Origin: Nitrospirota bacterium
GTDB lineage: Bacteria > Nitrospirota > Thermodesulfovibrionia > Thermodesulfovibrionales > UBA1546
DNA: 34,495 nucleotides
Direction of reading: 5' to 3'
NCBI GenBank assembly: GCA_016208875.1
Contig: JACQXD010000089.1
Span: 1-34,495, forward strand
The position numbers were made by a program, and so were the translations under genes. Under the pieces are notes generated by a model that searched no databases, was not told the DNA's origin, and saw only the letters and a program-made list of their open reading frames with translations. Positions within the stretch are counted from its first letter, which is position 1. Each line of letters begins with the position of its first letter. Below are positions 6,753-33,789 of this stretch, one piece after another.

Positions 6753-7067
6753 ATGATGAGCGGCGAAATCAAAACGATACATGAACTTGAGGAAAAGTCG
6801 GAACAAAAGACAAAAACTCCTCCCTATTATAATGTTTATTTGATCAACGACGACTATACGACTATGGAATTCGTCGTCCATGTCCTTGAGGAAGTCTTTC
6901 ACAAATCGTCTGTCGAGGCAACTCAAATAATGCTTCACGTTCATAAAAATGGAAAGGGGCTTGCGGGTGTTTTTGTTAGGGAGATTGCAGAGACAAAGGT
7001 AGATACGGTTCATAAGCTTGCAAAAGAGAATGAATTCCCTCTGAGATGCGCGATGGAGAAGGTATGA
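6753..7067 (+). CDS. clpS: ClpS adaptor (appears intact)
   Basis: PPYYNVYLINDDYTTMEFVVHVLEEVFHKS...MLHVHKNGKGLAGVF. Confidence 0.93.
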   Translation: MMSGEIKTIHELEEKSEQKTKTPPYYNVYLINDDYTTMEFVVHVLEEVFHKSSVEATQIMLHVHKNGKGLAGVFVREIAETKVDTVHKLAKENEFPLRCAMEKV

Positions 7068-8307
7068 TCAATAAAGAACTCGAATTAATTCTTGAGGCAA
7101 CGATAAAGGATGTGAGGGTAAAAAACTATGAATATCTTACTATAGAGCATCTCCTATATGCCGTACTTCATGATGAATCGGGTGCTTCCATAATCGTAAA
7201 CTGCGGCGGAAATATATCGAGGATGAAGCAGGAGATTGAAAAATATTTCGAGGCAAATATCCCGAAGATACAAAATGCCCCGGATGTCGTTCCACGGCAG
7301 ACCATAGGTTTCCACAGGACGATACAGAGGGCATTGAATCATGTCCGTTCTGCGGGTAAGGAAGAAGTTGATTCGGGCGATATACTGGCTGCGATATTTT
7401 ATGAACAGGATTCGTACGCAGCATTAAAGAAGTCGAAGATATTCTCTCTCGATATGGGGGCATTGCTTGCAGGCACAAGATTCAGGGGTGATTTTGAGGC
7501 TCGATTGAAATCAACTATCAAAAGCCTCGAGGCGATTCAGGGGGCGATACTTTTTATTGACGAAATACACACAGTGGTAGGTGCGGGTGCAACGAGCGGC
7601 GGTTCTATGGATGCATCGAATATCCTTAAACCGATACTGAATTCCGGAAAACTGCGCTGTATTGGCGCAAGCACTTATGAGGAATATAAAAATTATTTTG
7701 AGAAAGACCGCGCACTTTCGAGAAGATTCCAAAAGATCGAACTTCAGGAGCCCGACGTCGAAGATACTATAAAAATCCTCGAAGGATTAAAATCTTACTA
7801 TGAAGAATTTCATGGAGTCGGATATACGAAGAGTGCACTAAAGGCGGCAGCAGAACTCTCTGCAAAATACATAAACGACAAGTACCTTCCCGACAAGGCA
7901 ATTGATGTGATTGATGAGGCAGGGGCTGTTTTTAAACTCGGTATCTCTAAAAAGATCGGAAATACTATAGGCGTCCCTGAAATAGAAAGAACGGTTGCAG
8001 GTATTGCAAAGATACCCGCACAAACCATCTCGACATCCGAGACAAGAAAATTGATGCGCCTCGATACGGAGCTAAAAGATGTTGTATTCGGTCAGGATAA
8101 GGCAATCGTCTCTTTAGTGTCGGCCATAAAGAGGATCCGGGCAGGAATGGCTTCTCCCGACAAACCGATCGGGTCTTTCCTTTTCCTCGGACCTACGGGG
8201 GTAGGTAAAACGTCCTTTCCGATGAAGTGCTGTTTGGAAAGTTGAAAAAGGGCGGAAAGGTTTTTATTGATCTGAAAGAGGATAAACCGGTTTTCAGGTA
8301 TTCGTAG
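7064..8307 (+). pseudogene. clpA: ClpA remnant with two internal deletions: D1 Walker A region and most of D2 missing, frame change at second junction
   Basis: N-domain, then DSYA joined to ALKKSKIFSLDMGALLAGTRFRGDFE; D2 begins GSFLFLGPTGVGKT then passes out of frame into SDEVLFGKLKKGGKVFIDLKEDKPVFRYS* (8218-8307), a typical ClpA C-terminus. Confidence 0.85.
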
Positions 8308-12086: not shown

Positions 12087-14486
12087 TCACCTTAGAATTC
12101 TATGAAGATTATTTCTCGAGCTTTCATCTTCCGGGTTAATGCGTAAAGCAGTGCGATATTGCATTACAGCCATATCAGGTAATCCTTTTTGTTCATAACC
12201 CAAACCAAGATTATTATAAGCCTCAGCATAATCGGGTTTTAATTTAATAGCAATCTGGAATTGTTTTATAGACATATCAATCCATCCCTTATCCATATAG
12301 GCACTGCCAAGATTATTGCGGGCATCTACATATTTAGGGTTTAGATTTATTGCAATTTTATATTCCTGTATTGCCGCATCCAGTAGTCCCTGAGCATAAT
12401 AAATATTACCAAGATTATTATGAGCCTCCGGATAGTCGGGTTCGAACATAATGGCGGTTTGAAACTCGTTCGATGCCTTATCGAGCAACCCCTTTCCCCA
12501 ATATGCAATCCCGAGATTGTTATGGGCTTTCGGGTAATACGGTTTTAAACGGATAGCAATTTCCAAATGTTTAATCGCCTCATCGGTTAATCTCTGAGCA
12601 GTATAAACAATACCAAGATTGTAATGTGTTTCCGGATTATCCGGTCTTAACCTTAATGCAATCTCTAAATATTCCATTGCCCTGTTAATTAAACCTTTAT
12701 TGTTATAAATAATACCGAGACTGTTATAGGCATCAACATAATTTGGTCTTAGCCTTAATACGGTACCTAATTGTTCTATCGCCTTATCGGTTAAGCCCTT
12801 TTTATTGTAGAAGACTCCAAGATTATTGTGTCCCCCCGGTTTATTAGGACTCTTTTTTACCACGTCTTCCCAGAGACTTCTTTCACTCTGCCATATAGTA
12901 TTTCTCCGATAAGTTGTAATTGGAAAAAAAATTATTAGAGCGACAGAGCAATAGAGCGACAGAGCGGCAGGAAGAAAAGAAAAACTACTGCTCTGTTTTG
13001 CCGTACTGTCGTTCTGTTGAACTGTCGCACTGTCAAGCCGTTGCAAAACATAAAATAACGCAGTGCTAAAGGCTATGATTAACCCTATGGATGGTAGATA
13101 CATCCTGTGCTCAAAAATAATCTCGATATCAAAAAAATATTTACCCATATCTTCGGACGTAACCAGAAAAAAAGGTGAGATGGGCATAATGCTCGATTCG
13201 ACGGATAATGTTATAAAGAACCAGAAGATTCCGAAGGCGATAAGCCGTGACACGTGACGCGTAATGCGTGACACCCCCCTATATCCCCCCTTGATAAGGG
13301 GGGAATTAAAGGGGGGTATCGTTGCCCGTGAGCGATAAAACAAATATATCCCAAGCCCGAATACAGAAAACAAAAAAAGGAATGATAAAACTATCTGAGA
13401 TTCAAAGAACGAACTGTACACCGGATAATCATAATCGAGGTTCTGGTTTATCGGAAAAAACAATAATCTTATATATGTGACTATTACCCTAAGCTGCGTA
13501 AGTAGATAATCCTGAACCGATACCTGTGCTCCCTTAGACACCTCATTTGCATGACTTATTAAGTTTAGTATTGAACCATTTACATTAATGAGCGAAAAAG
13601 GTATAAACAGCATTGTAAGCAAAAGCGGGCTTAAATATAAAATCCTTCTCTTAATTTTTCCCTCAAAGAACATGAATTCATAAAGGGCAATTACAACAGG
13701 AAGTGTAAATGCAATTTCCTTTGTTTTCATAGCAAGAACGGCGGAAAGGAGAGAGATTAAATAGAGCGACAGTCCGGCAGAGCGACAGTGCGGCAATCTC
13801 CATGCTATTTTTTCTTTACTGTCGTTCTGTCGTTCTATCGTACTAAGGAGCCTCCATTTTATATACATCACCAATGACAGCAAATAAAAAAAAGTTGCGA
13901 GGGAAGTAACCCTTTGCCAAGTAAACGTAACGGCCTGAGTCTGAATCGGATGGCTTACGAAAAGTAATGCAGAAAATAATGCAATAGAAGTTGAGAAGTT
14001 TAGAGGTTGGGAAGTTGAAAAATTCTTATCTTCCCATCTTCTTATCTTCTCATCTTCCGTATTATCCTGATAGCTGACTGCTGATAGCTGACTGCTAAAG
14101 TATGGTATCCTGAGCGTCAGCGTTACAAACCAATAAACAAGTATTGCATTAAGAATATGTATTGCAAGATTGAAAATGTGATAACCTCTAACATCGAGGC
14201 CATGTATTCTATAATTCAGAGCAAAGGTAAGATAGCCGATGTATCTCAGTTTGAATGTTTCGTATCCTGCAAGACCGTTATTTGATGTGTTAAACATCCT
14301 TGCCTTTGAAGGCTGAATAAAAAAGCTCAAGGTTTTAACTATAGGGTTTTCAGCAATAAAAGACTTATCATCAAACAGAAACGGTACATTAAAGGTATTG
14401 GAGTAGGCAAGAAGGCCGATAATGGCTATGAGGAATAGATGAGAGATTGGGTTACGGAATAAGTTATTCATTGGTACTTTCCCCAT
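12087..14486 (-). CDS. TMTC-like multi-TM membrane protein with C-terminal TPR array
   Basis: LAYSNTFNVPFLFDDKSFI, multiple TM helices, then about 8 TPRs (NNLGxxYxxKGLxDxAIxxF). Confidence 0.85.
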   Translation of the reverse strand: MGKVPMNNLFRNPISHLFLIAIIGLLAYSNTFNVPFLFDDKSFIAENPIVKTLSFFIQPSKARMFNTSNNGLAGYETFKLRYIGYLTFALNYRIHGLDVRGYHIFNLAIHILNAILVYWFVTLTLRIPYFSSQLSAVSYQDNTEDEKIRRWEDKNFSTSQPLNFSTSIALFSALLFVSHPIQTQAVTFTWQRVTSLATFFYLLSLVMYIKWRLLSTIERQNDSKEKIAWRLPHCRSAGLSLYLISLLSAVLAMKTKEIAFTLPVVIALYEFMFFEGKIKRRILYLSPLLLTMLFIPFSLINVNGSILNLISHANEVSKGAQVSVQDYLLTQLRVIVTYIRLLFFPINQNLDYDYPVYSSFFESQIVLSFLFLFSVFGLGIYLFYRSRATIPPFNSPLIKGGYRGVSRITRHVSRLIAFGIFWFFITLSVESSIMPISPFFLVTSEDMGKYFFDIEIIFEHRMYLPSIGLIIAFSTALFYVLQRLDSATVQQNDSTAKQSSSFSFLPAALSLYCSVALIIFFPITTYRRNTIWQSERSLWEDVVKKSPNKPGGHNNLGVFYNKKGLTDKAIEQLGTVLRLRPNYVDAYNSLGIIYNNKGLINRAMEYLEIALRLRPDNPETHYNLGIVYTAQRLTDEAIKHLEIAIRLKPYYPKAHNNLGIAYWGKGLLDKASNEFQTAIMFEPDYPEAHNNLGNIYYAQGLLDAAIQEYKIAINLNPKYVDARNNLGSAYMDKGWIDMSIKQFQIAIKLKPDYAEAYNNLGLGYEQKGLPDMAVMQYRTALRINPEDESSRNNLHRILR
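12937..13037. repeat. Octamer-period inverted repeat inside CDS (AGAGCGAC arm / CTGTCGTT arm)
   Basis: AGAGCGAC AGAGCAAT AGAGCGAC AGAGCGGC at 12937-12968; CTGTCGTT CTGTTGAA CTGTCGCA CTGTCAAG to 13037. Confidence 0.85.
13246..13318. repeat. Heptamer array (CGTGACA x4) abutting a CCCCCCTTGATAAGGGGGG palindromic element inside CDS
   Basis: CGTGACA CGTGACG CGTAATG CGTGACA at 13246-13273, then palindrome. Confidence 0.8.
13763..13840. repeat. Second octamer-period inverted repeat inside CDS
   Basis: AGAGCGAC AGTCCGGC AGAGCGAC AGTGCGGC at 13763-13794; TACTGTCG TTCTGTCG TTCTATCG at 13817-13840. Confidence 0.85.
13987..14095. repeat. Third octamer-period inverted repeat plus heptamer array TGATAGC/TGACTGC x4 inside CDS
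   Basis: GAAGTTGA GAAGTTTA GAGGTTGG GAAGTTGA (13987-14018); TTCTTATC TTCCCATC TTCTTATC TTCTCATC (14023-14054); TGATAGC TGACTGC TGATAGC TGACTGC (14068-14095). Confidence 0.85.
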
Positions 14487-18505: not shown

Positions 18506-20583
18506 TATTTTCGAGAATTGTCTCATCCGTTGTGGTTATTTTTTTAATTGCCTCCTGTGCACCAAGACAGACTGCTAAAGAAGTAAAGACGGAGACGCCA
18601 TCCACGGCAGGGGAGATAAAGTTGCCGGAACTTCCGCCTCAAAGACCTGCCGAGACAAAAGAAACAAAGAAAGTTGAGCCGGTCAGGATTGAAAAAGAGG
18701 CGGATGAAAAATATGTAATATTAAATTTTGATGGGGCCGACATCGAGACGGTAATATCCACGATCGGAGAACTTCTTAATATGAATTATATACTCGGAGC
18801 GGGTGTCTCGGGAAAGGTTACGATCCAATCTTATAAGAAATTTCCCGTAAGGGATCTTTTTCAGATATTCCAGACCATCCTTGAATTGAACGGTCTGACC
18901 GCAGTGAAGGACGGAGCGTTTTATAGGATTGTGCCTATAGACACGGCAAAACAGCAGCCCGTTCCTATCGAAATAGGAAAAGAACCTAAATTTCAGATCG
19001 ACTCGAGTTTCATTACACAGATAATTCCCCTTGAACATGTTAAGGCAAATGACGTAGTTAATATCCTCAGAAACCTGATGCCTCGCGGTACCGATATTGT
19101 TGTATACGAGCCGACCAATCTTCTGATAATTACTTCTCTGCCTTCCGGGCTCGTTAAATTTATGAAGGTACTCGAGGCCGTTGATGTGTCTGCCGTAGAA
19201 CTCGAGTCGGTCAGAACATTCGTTTATTATGTCGAAAACGGCGAGGCGAAGAAACTTGCGGATATATTAAAGCACCTATATTCGGAAAAGAAAGAGACAA
19301 AGGGCGTGGTTCCAAGACCTATCGTACCGCCTCCTACTGCTCCCAAAGGTTTGCCTGTTACAACGGAAAGTTTGCCTGGAGAGATCGAGGGCGAGATGGT
19401 CATTGTTGCATATGAGGATATAAATAGTATTCTTGTCAAGACAAGCCCGAGGAGTTATGTTGCAATACTCGAGACATTGAAAAAACTTGACGTGCCTGTA
19501 AAACAGGTTCTTATTGAAGTTCTGATAGCCGAGATAAAGTTAAGTGATTCTACAAAGTTGGGGATTGAGTGGCTATTGAAGGCGCCTGTACACGCCGGAG
19601 GAGGTAAATTTACGAGTCTATCGGGATACGATTCGAGTTCCGTTGATTTTCCCGGCACTATCGATACCGATATAACTTCGGTTTCAGGACCGGCAGGATC
19701 CTATTTTGCGTCCATTATTAACCCCGATAGGTTTGGTGCCCTGCTTACTGCATTTGCAGGATTCGGAAAGGTAAACGTCCTTGCAAGCCCTCATATCCTT
19801 GCCATGGATAATAAAGAGGCGAATATACAGATAGGCGAGGATCTACCGGTGGCAACAGGACTAACGCAGCAGCCGTCTACAGCCGGCGGAACGACCCTTG
19901 TTTCATCGGGTCAGATACAGTATAAGACAGTCGGAACGATCCTGACGGTTAAGCCGCATATAACGGAAAAAAATCGTGTTACCCTCGATATAACGCAGGA
20001 ACAGAGTCAGCTCGGAGAAAAGATACCTATTGCCGGGCAGGACTTCCAGGGTTTTAATACGAGGAAGGCCAAGACCACTGCGGTTGTTCAAAGCGGACAT
20101 TCGCTTGTTTTAGGCGGATTGATAAGCGAGACGAAGAGCGAAGGAAGATCCGGAATCCCGTTCTTGAGCAATATTCCTGTCTTAGGCCATCTGTTTTCGA
20201 CAACGAGCAACTCGTTCAGTAAAACCGAACTGGTGGTAATGGTTACCCCGCATGTCCTGAATAATCAGGAAGAGGCAGATGCCCTTACAAGAGAATTTCA
20301 AAATCGGGTGAAGACTATTAAAAAGAGGCTTGATGAGATAAAACCTCTTGAAGAATCGAAGATTAAAAACTTTATGAATATTACCGTTGAAAGGGATTCC
20401 CCTTTAATGGACATAATAGAGTCAAGCGGGTATACTTTAACCGATGAAGATTACGGTGCTTTTTTAAGCGAGTTCCTAAGGTTGAATAGTGATATAAAAG
20501 ATATTAAATTAATAGAAAAGGGAAGCGTAATCAGGTTGCCTTTAAACTACCTTAAAAAACAGAAGTCGGCAGAAAGGAGGTGA
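18502..20583 (+). CDS. gspD: Secretin GspD/PilQ-like, lipoprotein, with short C-terminal extension
   Basis: Lipobox LIASC; N0/N1 domains; secretin motifs VLIEVLIAEI, LVLGGLISE, PVLGHLFS, ELVVMVTPHV. Confidence 0.93.
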   Translation: MIFSRIVSSVVVIFLIASCAPRQTAKEVKTETPSTAGEIKLPELPPQRPAETKETKKVEPVRIEKEADEKYVILNFDGADIETVISTIGELLNMNYILGAGVSGKVTIQSYKKFPVRDLFQIFQTILELNGLTAVKDGAFYRIVPIDTAKQQPVPIEIGKEPKFQIDSSFITQIIPLEHVKANDVVNILRNLMPRGTDIVVYEPTNLLIITSLPSGLVKFMKVLEAVDVSAVELESVRTFVYYVENGEAKKLADILKHLYSEKKETKGVVPRPIVPPPTAPKGLPVTTESLPGEIEGEMVIVAYEDINSILVKTSPRSYVAILETLKKLDVPVKQVLIEVLIAEIKLSDSTKLGIEWLLKAPVHAGGGKFTSLSGYDSSSVDFPGTIDTDITSVSGPAGSYFASIINPDRFGALLTAFAGFGKVNVLASPHILAMDNKEANIQIGEDLPVATGLTQQPSTAGGTTLVSSGQIQYKTVGTILTVKPHITEKNRVTLDITQEQSQLGEKIPIAGQDFQGFNTRKAKTTAVVQSGHSLVLGGLISETKSEGRSGIPFLSNIPVLGHLFSTTSNSFSKTELVVMVTPHVLNNQEEADALTREFQNRVKTIKKRLDEIKPLEESKIKNFMNITVERDSPLMDIIESSGYTLTDEDYGAFLSEFLRLNSDIKDIKLIEKGSVIRLPLNYLKKQKSAERR

Positions 20584-20984
20584 GTAGAATGAAGAAGTCA
20601 TTGACAAGATATATATCATGGTATTTAATGGTCGCGATGTTTATAATCGGGATTGCACCAAGGGCCGATGCAGGTCTTGTGCCTTCGGAATTGATGATCG
20701 TATCGCAGATAGATAGGACTGCTGACTTTGAAAAGATTCAGAAAGTTCTTGAGATGAAGATGGTCGGCGATAGACTGGAGAAATTCGGCCTCACAAAAGA
20801 TGAGATACAAAAGAAATTGACCACCCTGAGCGATCAGCAGATACATGGGTTAGCCCTCCGGATCGACGATCTCAAGGTTGGAAAAGATGATGTGGTCGGC
20901 GCAGTAGTCGTTATTCTTGTGGTAGCCATACTTGTTGTTTTGCTGCTTCAGCTTTCCGGCCGCAGGGTCATAGTTACAAGATAA
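20580..20984 (+). CDS. PA2779-like small membrane protein
   Basis: Signal/TM N-term, LxxFGLTKDEIQKKLTTLSDQQIHGLALRIDDL, C-terminal TM; next gene is a C39 peptidase. Confidence 0.65.
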   Translation: MSRMKKSLTRYISWYLMVAMFIIGIAPRADAGLVPSELMIVSQIDRTADFEKIQKVLEMKMVGDRLEKFGLTKDEIQKKLTTLSDQQIHGLALRIDDLKVGKDDVVGAVVVILVVAILVVLLLQLSGRRVIVTR

Positions 20985-20985
20985 A

Positions 20986-21543
20986 ATGGGAAATAAGAAA
21001 TTGGAAGTAAGAAGTGGAAAGTTAAAATTTCACTTCTTACTTCTTACTTTTTACTTCTTATTTGCCTGCGCTGCTACCGGTAATATTCAGGAATCGAAAA
21101 AGCACATCATTGAGAATGTCCCTTTTTATCCGCAGGAAACGGATCGGTGCGGTCCTGCATCCCTTGCAGGTGTAATGAATTACCTGAATATCGATGTAAC
21201 GGCCGGTGAGGTCTCGGAGGAGATATACAGCGAATCTGCGAGAGGCACTCTGGATGTCGATATGGTTGTTTATCCGCAGAAAAAGGGGTTGATCGCCGGG
21301 CAATATTCCGGCGGCATGGAGGATTTGAAAAACAATATAGATTCGGGATTTCCTCTGATAGTCCTTGTTGATTATGGATTCTCGATATTGCAGTCAAATC
21401 ATTTTATGGTTGTCATCGGATATAATGAACACGGCGTGATAGTAAATTCCGGAAGGGATAAGGCAAAGTTTATACCCGAGAAGGACTTCATAAAGTCGTG
21501 GAAGAGAACGAAGTTCTGGACGCTGCTTATAAAAAGAAAGTGA
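20986..21543 (+). CDS. C39-family (PA2778-like) cysteine peptidase lipoprotein
   Basis: VPFYPQETDRCGPASLAGVMNYL, HFMVVIGYNEHGVIVNSGRDK; lipobox LFAC. Confidence 0.8.
   Translation: MGNKKLEVRSGKLKFHFLLLTFYFLFACAATGNIQESKKHIIENVPFYPQETDRCGPASLAGVMNYLNIDVTAGEVSEEIYSESARGTLDVDMVVYPQKKGLIAGQYSGGMEDLKNNIDSGFPLIVLVDYGFSILQSNHFMVVIGYNEHGVIVNSGRDKAKFIPEKDFIKSWKRTKFWTLLIKRK
20991..21063. repeat. Heptamer-period inverted repeat (CTTCTTA) encoding the signal peptide
   Basis: CTTCTTA CTTCTTA CTTTTTA CTTCTTA at 21033-21060; reverse-complementary arm AAATAAGAAATTGGAAGTAAGAAGTGGAAAG at 20991-21021. Confidence 0.9.
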
Positions 21544-21629
21544 ATAGTAAACAGTATTTAGTGAACAGTTTAAAGAAAAAGGCACTGTATTTTTTTATCT
21601 ATTCACTATTCACTATTCACTATTCACTG
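21540..21629. repeat. Heptamer-period inverted repeat (GTGAATA / TATTCAC)
   Basis: Left GTGAATA GTAAACA GTATTTA GTGAACA; right ctattcactattcactattcactattcac. Confidence 0.9.
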
Positions 21630-22034
21630 CTTTCTTCTTGTTCCCTTCCAAGGATAATCGTTCTCGAAGACCCTCTTAGTCCCGAGGAACATATAAACCT
21701 CGGTGTCGCATATGAGAAAAAAGGCGAACTTGACAATGCACTGAAAGAATATAAGGAGGCATCAAAAAAACTGCCGGCTGCATATTTATACATCGGTAAT
21801 ATCTATTTTCAAGAAAAAAGATTTGATGAGGCGGAATTATATTACAAGAAGGCAATAAAAAAAGATTCCCAAAACGCCGCTGCATATAATAATCTTGCAT
21901 GGCTTTATTACACAAAGAAAGAAAATCTCGATGATGCGGTTACCCTCGTACTTAAGGCGATGGAACTCAACCCGTCAAGGAAGGACGTCTATCAGGACAC
22001 ACTTGAAAAGATAAGAAAACTTAAAAATTATTAA
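21540..22034 (+). CDS. TPR lipoprotein (likely GTG start at 21540, overlapping the C39 stop as GTGA)
   Basis: MNSKQYLVNSLKKKALYFFIYSLFTIHYSLLSSC lipoprotein signal then TPRs (HINLGVAYEKKGELDNALKEY). Confidence 0.75.
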   Translation: MNSKQYLVNSLKKKALYFFIYSLFTIHYSLLSSCSLPRIIVLEDPLSPEEHINLGVAYEKKGELDNALKEYKEASKKLPAAYLYIGNIYFQEKRFDEAELYYKKAIKKDSQNAAAYNNLAWLYYTKKENLDDAVTLVLKAMELNPSRKDVYQDTLEKIRKLKNY

Positions 22035-22097: not shown

Positions 22098-22109
22098 GTC
22101 CTTATATTC

Positions 22110-22195
22110 CCCCTTTGGCAAAGGGGGATGAAGGGGGATTTTTGAATAAATAAATTTTCAATAAATCTCCCCTAACCCCTCTTTGCCAAAGAGGA
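22110..22195. repeat. CCCCTTTGGCAAAGGGG-type palindromic element (inverted pair)
   Basis: ccccctttggcaaagggggatgaagggggattttt ... aaatctcccctaacccctctttgccaaagagg. Confidence 0.85.
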
Positions 22196-23475: not shown

Positions 23476-24219
23476 ATGCAAAAAAGCAATAAGGCAATTT
23501 TGAAAGATATCAAGGCTGTTCTTGAATTCTATCAAGCACTTGGATTTGAGAGGCTGCCGCTTAAAACGATACAAGATACAGGATACAAGATACAGGATAC
23601 AAAATCATGCACCATGAATCATGCATCGTGCATCGTGCATCGTGCATCGCCGCTCAATTCCGGGCAAAAGGAAACCGCTTTGAAAGAACTGCGTGATGAG
23701 ATCGGTGATTGTCAGAGGTGTAAGCTCTCGAAGGGTAGAAAAAACCTTGTTTTCGGAGAAGGAAGCGTTGATGCAGAGATTATGTTCATAGGCGAGGGTC
23801 CTGGAGAGGAAGAAGATATTCAAGGAAGGCCGTTTGTCGGCAAGGCGGGGCAACTACTTACGAGTCTGATAACAAAGATGGGCTTTAAGAGGGAGGATGT
23901 TTATATAGGCAATATAGTCAAGTGCAGGCCTTCGTTTAACCGCGACCCCGAAGATGATGAAATAAATGCCTGCCTGCCGTTTATCGAAAAACAAGTTGAG
24001 ATAATATCTCCAAAGGTTATAGTTTCCCTCGGCCGGATATCCACCCAGACCTTGATAGGCATGAAGACTCCAATAAGCAAAATAAGGGGACACTTCCATA
24101 CATTTAATGATATCCCCCTGATGCCGACATTCCATCCTGCCTATCTACTTAGGAATCCCAAGGATAAATGGCTTGTCTGGGAAGATGCACAGAAGGTTTT
24201 AGAACGACTGAATAAATAG
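23476..24219 (+). CDS. Type 4/5 uracil-DNA glycosylase (Fe-S)
   Basis: GDCQRCKLSKGRKNLVFGEG, FIGEGPGEEEDIQGRPFVGKAGQLL, NIVKCRPSFNRDPEDDEINAC, PTFHPAYLLRNP. Confidence 0.95.
   Translation: MQKSNKAILKDIKAVLEFYQALGFERLPLKTIQDTGYKIQDTKSCTMNHASCIVHRASPLNSGQKETALKELRDEIGDCQRCKLSKGRKNLVFGEGSVDAEIMFIGEGPGEEEDIQGRPFVGKAGQLLTSLITKMGFKREDVYIGNIVKCRPSFNRDPEDDEINACLPFIEKQVEIISPKVIVSLGRISTQTLIGMKTPISKIRGHFHTFNDIPLMPTFHPAYLLRNPKDKWLVWEDAQKVLERLNK
23568..23648. repeat. Heptamer-period inverted repeat inside UDG (GATACAA/G x5; ATGCATC/GTGCATC x5)
   Basis: Left 23568-23602, right 23614-23648, five units each. Confidence 0.9.
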
Positions 24220-31593: not shown

Positions 31594-33789
31594 TCATTTT
31601 GTCTTCTCCAAAAGCTCCATCACCTCTTTCCTCTCAGGCGAGTCGGATGGAAGAAGGCTCAGTGCCTTATTGAAATGCCTTCTTGCCTCTTTGAGATCAC
31701 CCTTTGCAAGCGTGGCCTTTCCCATGCCGGTATAGGATAGAGCAAGATTAGGGGAAAGCTTTGCCATAACAGAAAAATGCTTATAGGCTGCTTCCGGATT
31801 ACCGCCTTCAAGGAATATCATTGCAACAGCATAGCGTATGTTACCATTCAGGGGATCCGTGATAATTGCCTTATTAAGACTCTCTATCCCCTTTTGGTTT
31901 TCTCCCAAATATAAAAAACTCTTTGCAAGCAATAAGTAATCTTCTCCGTTTTGCGGTATCCCTTTTGTTGCAAGATAAGAATATTCCTCTGCCTTATCTT
32001 TTAAGTCAAGACGATAATAACATTCTGCAATCAAACCAAGAGCCGCCGGAGATTGCGGCCTTATTTTTAAAACTTCCCTGTATTCATTTATTGCCTTGTT
32101 ATAATCTTTTTTGTCCTTATATATGCTGCCCAGATTATAATGATAGATTTCAAATAGACTCTTATCGTTTTTTATTTTTCTTGAATCAGCTATTGACAGG
32201 AGAATTGATTCTGCATTGTTCATATCTTTTTTAAAGAAATAGGCAGTTGCCAAATTGATATAAGTTTCCGTCTGTTTACTCCCTTTTTTAATAGCTGTTT
32301 TACATATCTCGATCGCCTTATCCATTTGCTGTCTTTCCACATATGATGCACAAAGATTTGTATAAGGTCTGATTTTTTCCGGAGATTTTTGGATAGCGTC
32401 TTTCCATAGGGTAACCGGATCTTTATAGACTTCATTCCTCATATGCGCAAGGACTCCTAAAGAGATAACAACACAAGCAATAGCGAATATCCCGATTCTC
32501 TTATGTCTTAAAAATAGGCCGAGCAGCAGTTCACCTATAAAAAGTGAAAAACCGATCGAAGCGGTATAAACCCACCTCTCCGCCATGTAATCTTCCAATC
32601 TGATTGTTAGAAAGGGAATGAGATTGATAAAGAACCACAGGATTGAAAAAGACAAAATCCTATTCCTATTTTTTAAGAAAATTGCAGTCAGTAAGAGACC
32701 CAAAATAATCACAAATGGGACTATAACCGATAGGGCAAAAGAGGTTGATACCTTTACAGTGTGGTCTATATTTAGACCAAAAGGCAGGATTAAGAGCTTG
32801 AGATATTCAATAAAGACCTTTAATTCCGTAAAGATATGAGTCAGCCACGGCCTATCTGACATTGCTGGTCTTGTAATATATCCTGAATAATAGAAAAAAC
32901 CTGCTGCGATTATTCCCCAGAAAGGCAGGTGATATTTTATCCTTGCCCTAAAGTTCTCGTTCTTATCGGATATAAAATAAAGGTCGAAAAACAAAATCAA
33001 TATCGGGGTCACTATAGCCGATTCTTTAGTTGACAGGCCGAGGATAAAGAAGATTATACTTAATGGATAAAAAAGCAGGTTGAATTTTTGCGAAGTTCCC
33101 CTGAAAAAACACAACATCGAAGCCAGCATAAAAAATGTAGATAATATTGACGAACGGCTTGAGATGTATGTAACGCTTTCGGTGTTGATGGGATGGAGCA
33201 AGAAAAGGGACGCGGCGAGGATGGCTGCGGCTGACTTGTCATTGATCCCTAAATACCCCTCACCCTTGCCCTCTCCCGCAAGGGGAGAGGGAATATTGGG
33301 AGTTCCTCCCTTTGTTTCCCCTCCCTCAATGGCAGACTCCTTCCTTATTTCCCCTCCCTCAATGGCAGACTCCTTCCTTATTTCCCCTCCCTCAATGGCG
33401 GACTCCTTCCTTATTTCCCCTCCATTGAGGGGAGGGGATTGAGGGGAGGGTGGATACACATACTTCGCCAGCAACAAATAAAACAAAAACGCCGTTGATA
33501 TGTGAATAAAGAGATTTACAATATGGTATCCAAAAGTGTCCAGGCCATTTATTAAATAATTCAGATAAAACGTAAAAAGGAGAAATGCCCTGCCTGTAAT
33601 TATCCTCGAATAACTCTCGGTTACCCAATTAAAAAATAGCGGAAATGATTTTATTGATATATTTTCTCTGAGAAACGACAGGTCATCATAGTGAAAGGGG
33701 ACGGTAAAAGAATTAAAATAGGCAATTAACCCTATTAATGTGAGGAAGATAAAGACTGTCCTTTTACGGATTTTAATGTGCTGTCTCAT
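31594..33789 (-). CDS. TMTC-like multi-TM membrane protein with C-terminal TPRs
   Basis: LIAYFNSFTVPFHYDDLSFLRENISIKSF, TYISSRSSILSTFFMLASM, TPR array. Confidence 0.85.
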   Translation of the reverse strand: MRQHIKIRKRTVFIFLTLIGLIAYFNSFTVPFHYDDLSFLRENISIKSFPLFFNWVTESYSRIITGRAFLLFTFYLNYLINGLDTFGYHIVNLFIHISTAFLFYLLLAKYVYPPSPQSPPLNGGEIRKESAIEGGEIRKESAIEGGEIRKESAIEGGETKGGTPNIPSPLAGEGKGEGYLGINDKSAAAILAASLFLLHPINTESVTYISSRSSILSTFFMLASMLCFFRGTSQKFNLLFYPLSIIFFILGLSTKESAIVTPILILFFDLYFISDKNENFRARIKYHLPFWGIIAAGFFYYSGYITRPAMSDRPWLTHIFTELKVFIEYLKLLILPFGLNIDHTVKVSTSFALSVIVPFVIILGLLLTAIFLKNRNRILSFSILWFFINLIPFLTIRLEDYMAERWVYTASIGFSLFIGELLLGLFLRHKRIGIFAIACVVISLGVLAHMRNEVYKDPVTLWKDAIQKSPEKIRPYTNLCASYVERQQMDKAIEICKTAIKKGSKQTETYINLATAYFFKKDMNNAESILLSIADSRKIKNDKSLFEIYHYNLGSIYKDKKDYNKAINEYREVLKIRPQSPAALGLIAECYYRLDLKDKAEEYSYLATKGIPQNGEDYLLLAKSFLYLGENQKGIESLNKAIITDPLNGNIRYAVAMIFLEGGNPEAAYKHFSVMAKLSPNLALSYTGMGKATLAKGDLKEARRHFNKALSLLPSDSPERKEVMELLEKTK
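33318..33416. repeat. Three tandem 33-bp units inside CDS (protein EIRKESAIEGG x3)
   Basis: cccctccctcaatggcagactccttccttattt x3, one substitution in the third. Confidence 0.95.

Follow-up and report, generated by a model that had tools for sequence, protein, structure and literature searches.

Repeat DNA as a probable source of the predicted signal peptide of a C39-like peptidase in a Nitrospirota bacterium

How does an exported protein come by a new signal peptide? Signal peptides diverge fast, and to our knowledge the origin of new ones is poorly documented. The question is raised by the gene of a C39-like cysteine peptidase in a Nitrospirota bacterium (assembly GCA_016208875.1, contig JACQXD010000089.1, positions 1 to 34,495; this whole stretch of 34,495 nucleotides is referred to as the window), whose predicted signal peptide is encoded by an inverted repeat containing a tandem heptamer array. 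The features concerned are the following.

20580..20984, + strand: PA2779-family gene (DUF6627), directly 5' of the C39 gene; NCBIfam NF033919 at 3.8e-22, above the cut-off, and Pfam DUF6627
20986..21543, + strand: C39-like cysteine peptidase, predicted lipoprotein, from the ORF translation; N-terminal half of the PA2778 family model
20988..21026, + strand: purine-rich left arm of the inverted repeat, codons 2-14, charged n-region GNKKLEVRSGKLK; from repeat search and translation
21028..21066, + strand: pyrimidine-rich right arm of the inverted repeat, codons 15-27, hydrophobic h-region FHFLLLTFYFLFA; from repeat search and translation
21032..21060, + strand: heptamer array CTTCTTA (rotation ACTTCTT), 4.1 copies, 90% match (TRF)
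21067..21069, + strand: lipobox cysteine codon (LFA/C), the first codon past the repeat; from sequence and translation

The C39 ORF, whose translation begins MGNKKLEVRSGKLKFHFLLLTFYFLFAC, matches Peptidase_C39_2 (2.6e-16), and a single base separates its ATG from the TAA of the PA2779-family gene (20982-20984). Codons 2-27 consist of an imperfect inverted repeat with arms that are 77% complementary and 1 nt apart, and Cys28 is the next codon; tandem repeat analysis of the right arm gives a period of 7 with the consensus ACTTCTT. Two claims of the preliminary description of this DNA, that the signal peptide of the C39 peptidase is encoded by a heptamer inverted repeat and that the right arm of this repeat is made of four CTTCTTA heptamers, are thus borne out. 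As judged by sequence features and by our own scripts and heuristics for calling genes and signal peptides, the N-terminus has the organization of a lipoprotein Sec/SPII signal, with MGNKKLEVRSGKLK as n-region, FHFLLLTFYFLFA as h-region and the cysteine following. A cysteine occupies the lipobox place in most C39 homologues, although the Phe at position -2 is atypical for a lipobox. From this we infer that the C39 peptide is exported and lipidated.

The downstream neighbour carries a second element of this kind.

21498..22034, + strand: TPR lipoprotein gene (start uncertain, overlaps the end of the C39 gene), PA2778 model positions 156-255, the half absent from the C39 gene
21539..21628, + strand: second heptamer palindrome, CTATTCA x 4.3, encoding the signal peptide FIYSLFTIHYSLLSSC of the TPR lipoprotein

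That the export signal of a neighbouring gene derives from another heptamer family had also been proposed, and the CTATTCA element is real. Against the PA2778 family model (NF033920) the C39 ORF scores 113 bits, below the cut-off of 150, and covers positions 2-144, whereas the upstream gene clearly belongs to the PA2779 family (NF033919, 78.7 bits with a cut-off of 40). Since the C39 and TPR genes together span both halves of the PA2778 model, the operon looks like a split PA2778 beside PA2779, and in relatives as well as here PA2778 appears to be divided between two lipoprotein genes. Lag-7 arrays are found at the TPR gene in 20 of 89 loci and at none of 106 other junctions, with 0-2 at other lags; their heptamer units vary by lineage, and a Desulfobacterota-type genome (L126) is among the carriers.

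Short-period repeats are abundant in this genome. In 466 kb of its sequence 101 lag-7 arrays were observed as compared to 1 in a third-order Markov resample, and 17 lag-8 arrays as compared to 0, while lags 4-6 and 9-12 yielded no comparable excess in the same 466 kb. A sample of stretches totalling 1.10 Mb (37% of the genome) contains 241 lag-7 arrays, of which 82 have a complementary arm, and 78 distinct heptamer units; the TTACTTC unit recurs at only a few places in the genome. The C39 element, being a period-7 array beyond chance, is therefore a heptanucleotide simple sequence repeat, whereas a MITE or palindromic family, with many copies of one conserved consensus, does not describe elements with 78 distinct units. 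Palindromic heptamer arrays run from purine to pyrimidine in 33 of 41 cases and in the reverse direction in one, and the hairpins at PA2779-C39 junctions that encode signal peptides do so in 33 of 35, with none reversed. A difference in polarity between signal-peptide-coding and intergenic junction hairpins was considered and rejected, the magnitude being equal (p=0.49) even though no coding hairpin was reversed. Similarly rejected was the idea that heptamers are intrinsically stop-free units and thus transparent to reading frames: units between genes lack stop codons on one strand or both in 39 of 57 cases as compared to 82% for random heptamers. As 135 of 137 coding units are stop-free, the coding set is filtered. 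Matches to Y1 (IS200/REP-type) transposases number eight in the genome of the window (G000) and none in two further genomes (G002 and G006), of which G006 nonetheless has similar palindromes, so that a strict dependence on Y1 transposases is not supported. No element-free site was found for comparison.

Several other peculiarities of the window and its genome were observed alongside. At 23568-23649 the gene of a type-4 uracil-DNA glycosylase (UDG) contains in-frame GATACAA and ATCGTGC arrays, which separate the N-terminal residues of the protein from its catalytic domain. Genes for PMT/TPR-type membrane proteins contain several heptamer and octamer palindromes within their coding sequences, in similar positions from one paralogue to the next (window 12937-14096; L157:1-573, L204, L206, L208:14399-15967, L210). 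An inverted repeat of the CCCCTTTGGCAAAGGGGGATGAAGGGGGATTTTTGAA type (22100-22190) lies 5' of a tsaE-like gene and has similar stretches elsewhere in the genome, for example in L139; a 33-bp repeat in 3.3 copies (33315-33450) is in frame in the gene of a TPR membrane protein and adjoins an inverted copy of GGGGAGGGG. The ClpA-like ORF after ClpS (7046-8245) stops early (399 aa, ...FPMKCCLES), possibly through a frameshift or an assembly error.

How could such a repeat become an export signal? The explanation that we consider probable is capture of a short-period, mostly 7-nt and often palindromic repeat as Sec/lipoprotein signal peptide of the C39 peptidase. The C39 element would be one of the several hundred short-period, mostly 7-nt repeats, many of them palindromic, that the genome is estimated to hold. 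In an open frame the purine-rich 5' arm would provide codons rich in K, R, E and G and thereby the n-region, and the pyrimidine-rich 3' arm codons rich in F, L and S and thereby the h-region. As the polarity of a palindrome is identical on both strands, this order of n-region and h-region should result from either orientation. Signal peptides would in this way be recruited repeatedly from unrelated purine-then-pyrimidine palindromes, perhaps with selection for an intercistronic stem-loop at work, and the element presumably became fixed because a signal peptide tolerates any sequence of such composition.

Comparison with relatives indicates how readily this segment is exchanged. A member of another genus of the same family (L010) retains the heptamer palindrome and a nearly identical C39 peptide, KLKFHFLLLTVYFLVSC; the DNA of the signal peptide is 78% identical between the window and L010, and that of the flanks 70% and 67%. 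The preliminary description had named as damaging to its case a relative with a near-identical peptide from which the repeat is missing; this did not occur, as L010 keeps the repeat. L015, the sister of L010, has at the same site a palindrome unrelated to that of L010: the flanks of these two loci are 93% and 86% identical, whereas identity across the signal-peptide DNA is 0.65, with a shuffled maximum of 0.63. In other C39 relatives the site is occupied by a CATTGCGA element, by a GCAGGCATGG hairpin, or by AAGGTTAAGG, GGGATGAAGG or TAGGCGATGG palindromes. The whole signal-peptide segment has thus been replaced by unrelated palindromes in close sisters. The idea that a heptamer of the window's type occurs at C39 in all relatives was rejected, as the window is the sole one of 84 loci to reach the lag-7 threshold. 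A C39 tree with 44 tips requires 19 changes of element type, and the two carriers of CTTCTTA are not sisters, which makes parallel capture of a like element, or transfer, more likely than simple inheritance as origin of CTTCTTA in both carriers; its inheritance with loss in the remaining C39 members is possible. As most C39 relatives use other palindromes, the common feature is a palindrome with a purine arm followed by a pyrimidine arm, or a stem-loop, at the PA2779-C39 boundary.

Is it then the peptide or the RNA that is selected? The selected feature might primarily be an RNA stem-loop between PA2779 and C39, acting as intercistronic attenuator or as protector of the mRNA end and lowering C39 relative to PA2779, an explanation to which we give a little less than an even chance and which is compatible with capture as signal peptide. 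The sequence of such a stem-loop would be free to change and, wherever the C39 start follows right after the PA2779 stop, the hairpin would have to encode the signal peptide as well. When the 120 nt 3' of the PA2779 stop were set against further tight same-strand junctions taken from the same loci, with z-scores from dinucleotide shuffles that ignore codon constraint, the median fold z was -2.98 for 88 PA2779-C39 junctions and -0.07 for 175 other junctions (p=1.7e-20), a conservative comparison since the control junctions include the repeat-rich C39-TPR ones. As related sequences are not independent, a mutually dissimilar subset is given in addition (28 junctions, median z -3.29, versus 45 controls, -0.15; p=8e-6). 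A stable stem-loop is therefore present at this boundary in most of the 88 loci, its sequence varying by lineage, and in the window itself the junction, with a z of about -6, is more extreme than any other among the 406 tight same-strand junctions of the 1.10-Mb genome sample. In some loci the stem-loop lies upstream of the C39 start codon and resembles a terminator (L122, L125, L134, L129, L132), whereas in about half of the lineages it lies inside the codons of the C39 signal peptide, as in L093, L112 and L032, where the stem corresponds to the n-region and a U-rich h-region follows. Tails rich in T occur more often on the sense side (24 versus 13 of 72, p=4e-4). Within the GCAGGCATG clade pairing holds for 95.6% of cells, and at two base pairs both sides have changed, a slight covariation that lends weak support because it comes from 6 sequences. 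A PA2779-family gene is among the candidates for strong constitutive promoters in Pseudomonas stutzeri (PMC10155442), and selection for an intercistronic stem-loop, perhaps separating a highly expressed PA2779 from its neighbour, is possible judging from these sequence comparisons.

An intrinsic terminator consists of a G+C-rich stem followed by a U-tract. Several relatives (L122, L125, L134) have this arrangement, but the stem of the window is A+T-rich and is followed by GCCTGCGC rather than a U-tract, and would thus make a poor intrinsic terminator. Several Desulfobacterota loci moreover lack significant junction structure (z about 0), and some of the hairpins are repeat elements that could be present through insertion alone. 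A known riboswitch or RNA family as identity of the window's stem-loop was dismissed, as no Rfam family matches at gathering score in the window. The two ideas could also be combined. If the boundary were under selection for an interchangeable RNA stem-loop, any palindrome supplying it would also have to encode n- and h-regions, and the signal peptide would be a replaceable by-product of RNA structure, renewed by unrelated repeats; such dual coding we put forward tentatively, with a probability somewhat below even.

The differing heptamers may alternatively descend from one ancestral array whose unit drifts by slippage and homogenization, so that they would represent descendants instead of new captures. 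This is conceivable but doubtful. The h-region of DacA is heptameric in 11 homologues, with TTGTCAC, TGTTCAC, TATTCAC, TTTTCAC, TTTTGCA and GCTTGCA among the units; the first four of these are alike and the heptapeptide phase is conserved, just as expected for drift. The M16 peptidase behaves like DacA, its signal peptide being heptamer-encoded family-wide with a unit that differs by species (control windows from the same loci reach the score used for DacA and M16 in 5%). These heptamers (L244-L254 for DacA and L226-L236 for M16) lie about 100-150 nt upstream of the mature proteins. The C39 elements, however, are not related in kind, and sisters whose flanks are nearly identical differ in the element that they carry, which argues against drift of a single array at this gene.

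Could the palindromes merely have been left in place? No coding DNA is less constrained than gene boundaries and signal peptides, and mobile or slippage-born palindromes might pile up there simply because they are not removed; we regard such neutral accumulation as unlikely to be the explanation, even though tolerance contributes to the pattern, as arrays also occur at the N-termini of non-exported proteins. Arrays lie inside the first 105 nt of 23 genes in the 1.10-Mb sample, and among the genes whose start is plausible most are assigned to the envelope by Pfam: the M16 peptidase, DacA (S11 D-Ala-D-Ala carboxypeptidase), an NHL lipoprotein and a multihaem cytochrome all have heptamer signal peptides, as have SpoIID, a TonB-dependent receptor, LptD and pilin-like proteins, the leaders of the latter (MNRASCIVHRDRG/FTLIE and variants; gene runs L045:888-3502 and L208:5222-6996) being encoded by ATCGTGC-type heptamers. 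Four non-exported proteins (UDG, glyS, thiE and an ABC ATPase) likewise have N-terminal arrays, and others lie inside a PMT/TPR gene, as neutral tolerance would predict. Genome-wide enrichment, which the preliminary description had proposed as a check, is marginal: lag-7 repeats were found in 5 of 212 signal-peptide genes and 5 of 703 others of the genome sample (Fisher p=0.058), with a crude signal-peptide rule and contigs picked via repeat hits left out, so that a strong enrichment at lipoproteins was not found. Most signal peptides in the sample have no repeat, and repeats are hence a minority route to signal peptides in which tolerance plays a part. The close precedents, too, are mostly described as neutral (PMC2229807). 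Against neutrality as the full account, the elements constitute the h-region itself and are not an added extension, unrelated palindromes substitute for one another at one site, and tight junctions before other signal-peptide or membrane genes of the window's genome are nearly unstructured (z<-3 in 3.7%). Finally, an assembly or binning artefact is extremely improbable, for although the window and most relatives belong to many-contig draft genomes, largely metagenome assemblies, identical anatomy is seen in many independent assemblies from different projects.

Capture of repeats as signal peptides thus remains the preferred reading, and the broader claim that short-period repeats can be exapted as signal peptides is largely right, its scope having been drawn too narrowly. 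Heptamers recur at the corresponding site in orthologues, though with other units, and the same genome uses them in signal peptides of envelope proteins assigned by Pfam; what did not hold as worded is the role of heptamers, which are not the essential unit, and an enrichment across the genome, which is weak, with arrays also at non-exported N-termini.

In-frame palindromes and a signal peptide derived in part from a palindromic repeat are already known. In Yersinia the palindromic repeat YPAL/RU-2 forms in frame a part of the predicted signal peptide of YPO1552 (Delihas review, PMC2229807), and this repeat and other ORF-bearing bacterial MITEs resemble the C39 element in that an in-frame palindromic repeat supplies signal-peptide sequence. 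As RNA, YPAL also folds into a stem-loop that reportedly acts on upstream transcripts (PMC2229807), which is reminiscent of the C39 boundary. YPAL is, however, one conserved sequence of about 168 bp, whereas here many different units, mostly 7-nt periodic, occur in numerous genes and replace one another at a single site from one sister species to another. The palindromic elements of Rickettsia, as summarized in the same review, are inserted in frame in protein genes (Ogata et al. 2000, per PMC2229807); in that summary they form families of 105-146 bp inside proteins and are roughly neutral inserts, unlike the C39 element, a functional-looking signal sequence lacking a conserved consensus. Heptanucleotide repeats are the most abundant class of simple repeats in most surveyed genomes (Mrazek 2007, cited in PMC4679880). 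These long repeats and the TAACTGA repeats, according to the portions of PMC4679880 that describe them (Mrazek 2007 per PMC4679880; MacGregor 2015, PMC4679880), are likewise period-7 tandem arrays, often before start codons, but consist of direct repeats with one or a few units, lying for the most part between genes, in contrast to the many units described here, which often form palindrome arms and encode n- and h-regions. Intrinsic terminators and intercistronic attenuators share with the C39 boundary a stem-loop that separates a first gene, presumed to be highly expressed, from the one after it, with a U-rich tail in a third of cases, and differ in that about half of the lineages have the stem-loop in signal-peptide codons of the next gene and that the window's stem lacks a U-tract. 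No earlier report of heptamer palindromes as recurrent signal peptides was found in the open-access literature. The stem-loop at the PA2779-C39 boundary, located before the start codon or within the signal peptide, is new.

What does this mean for the family? The export tags of C39 peptidases in uncultured Nitrospirota appear, from their sequences, to be swappable wholesale for repeat DNA. The locus amounts to a replicated natural experiment in which identifiable repeat DNA has many times taken the place of the whole signal peptide of one orthologous gene, leaving both flanks intact. It offers a simple and testable rule, namely that palindromes with the purine arm first would in an open frame encode an n-region and an h-region in either orientation, and it ties the evolution of signal peptides to an mRNA stem-loop at an operon boundary.
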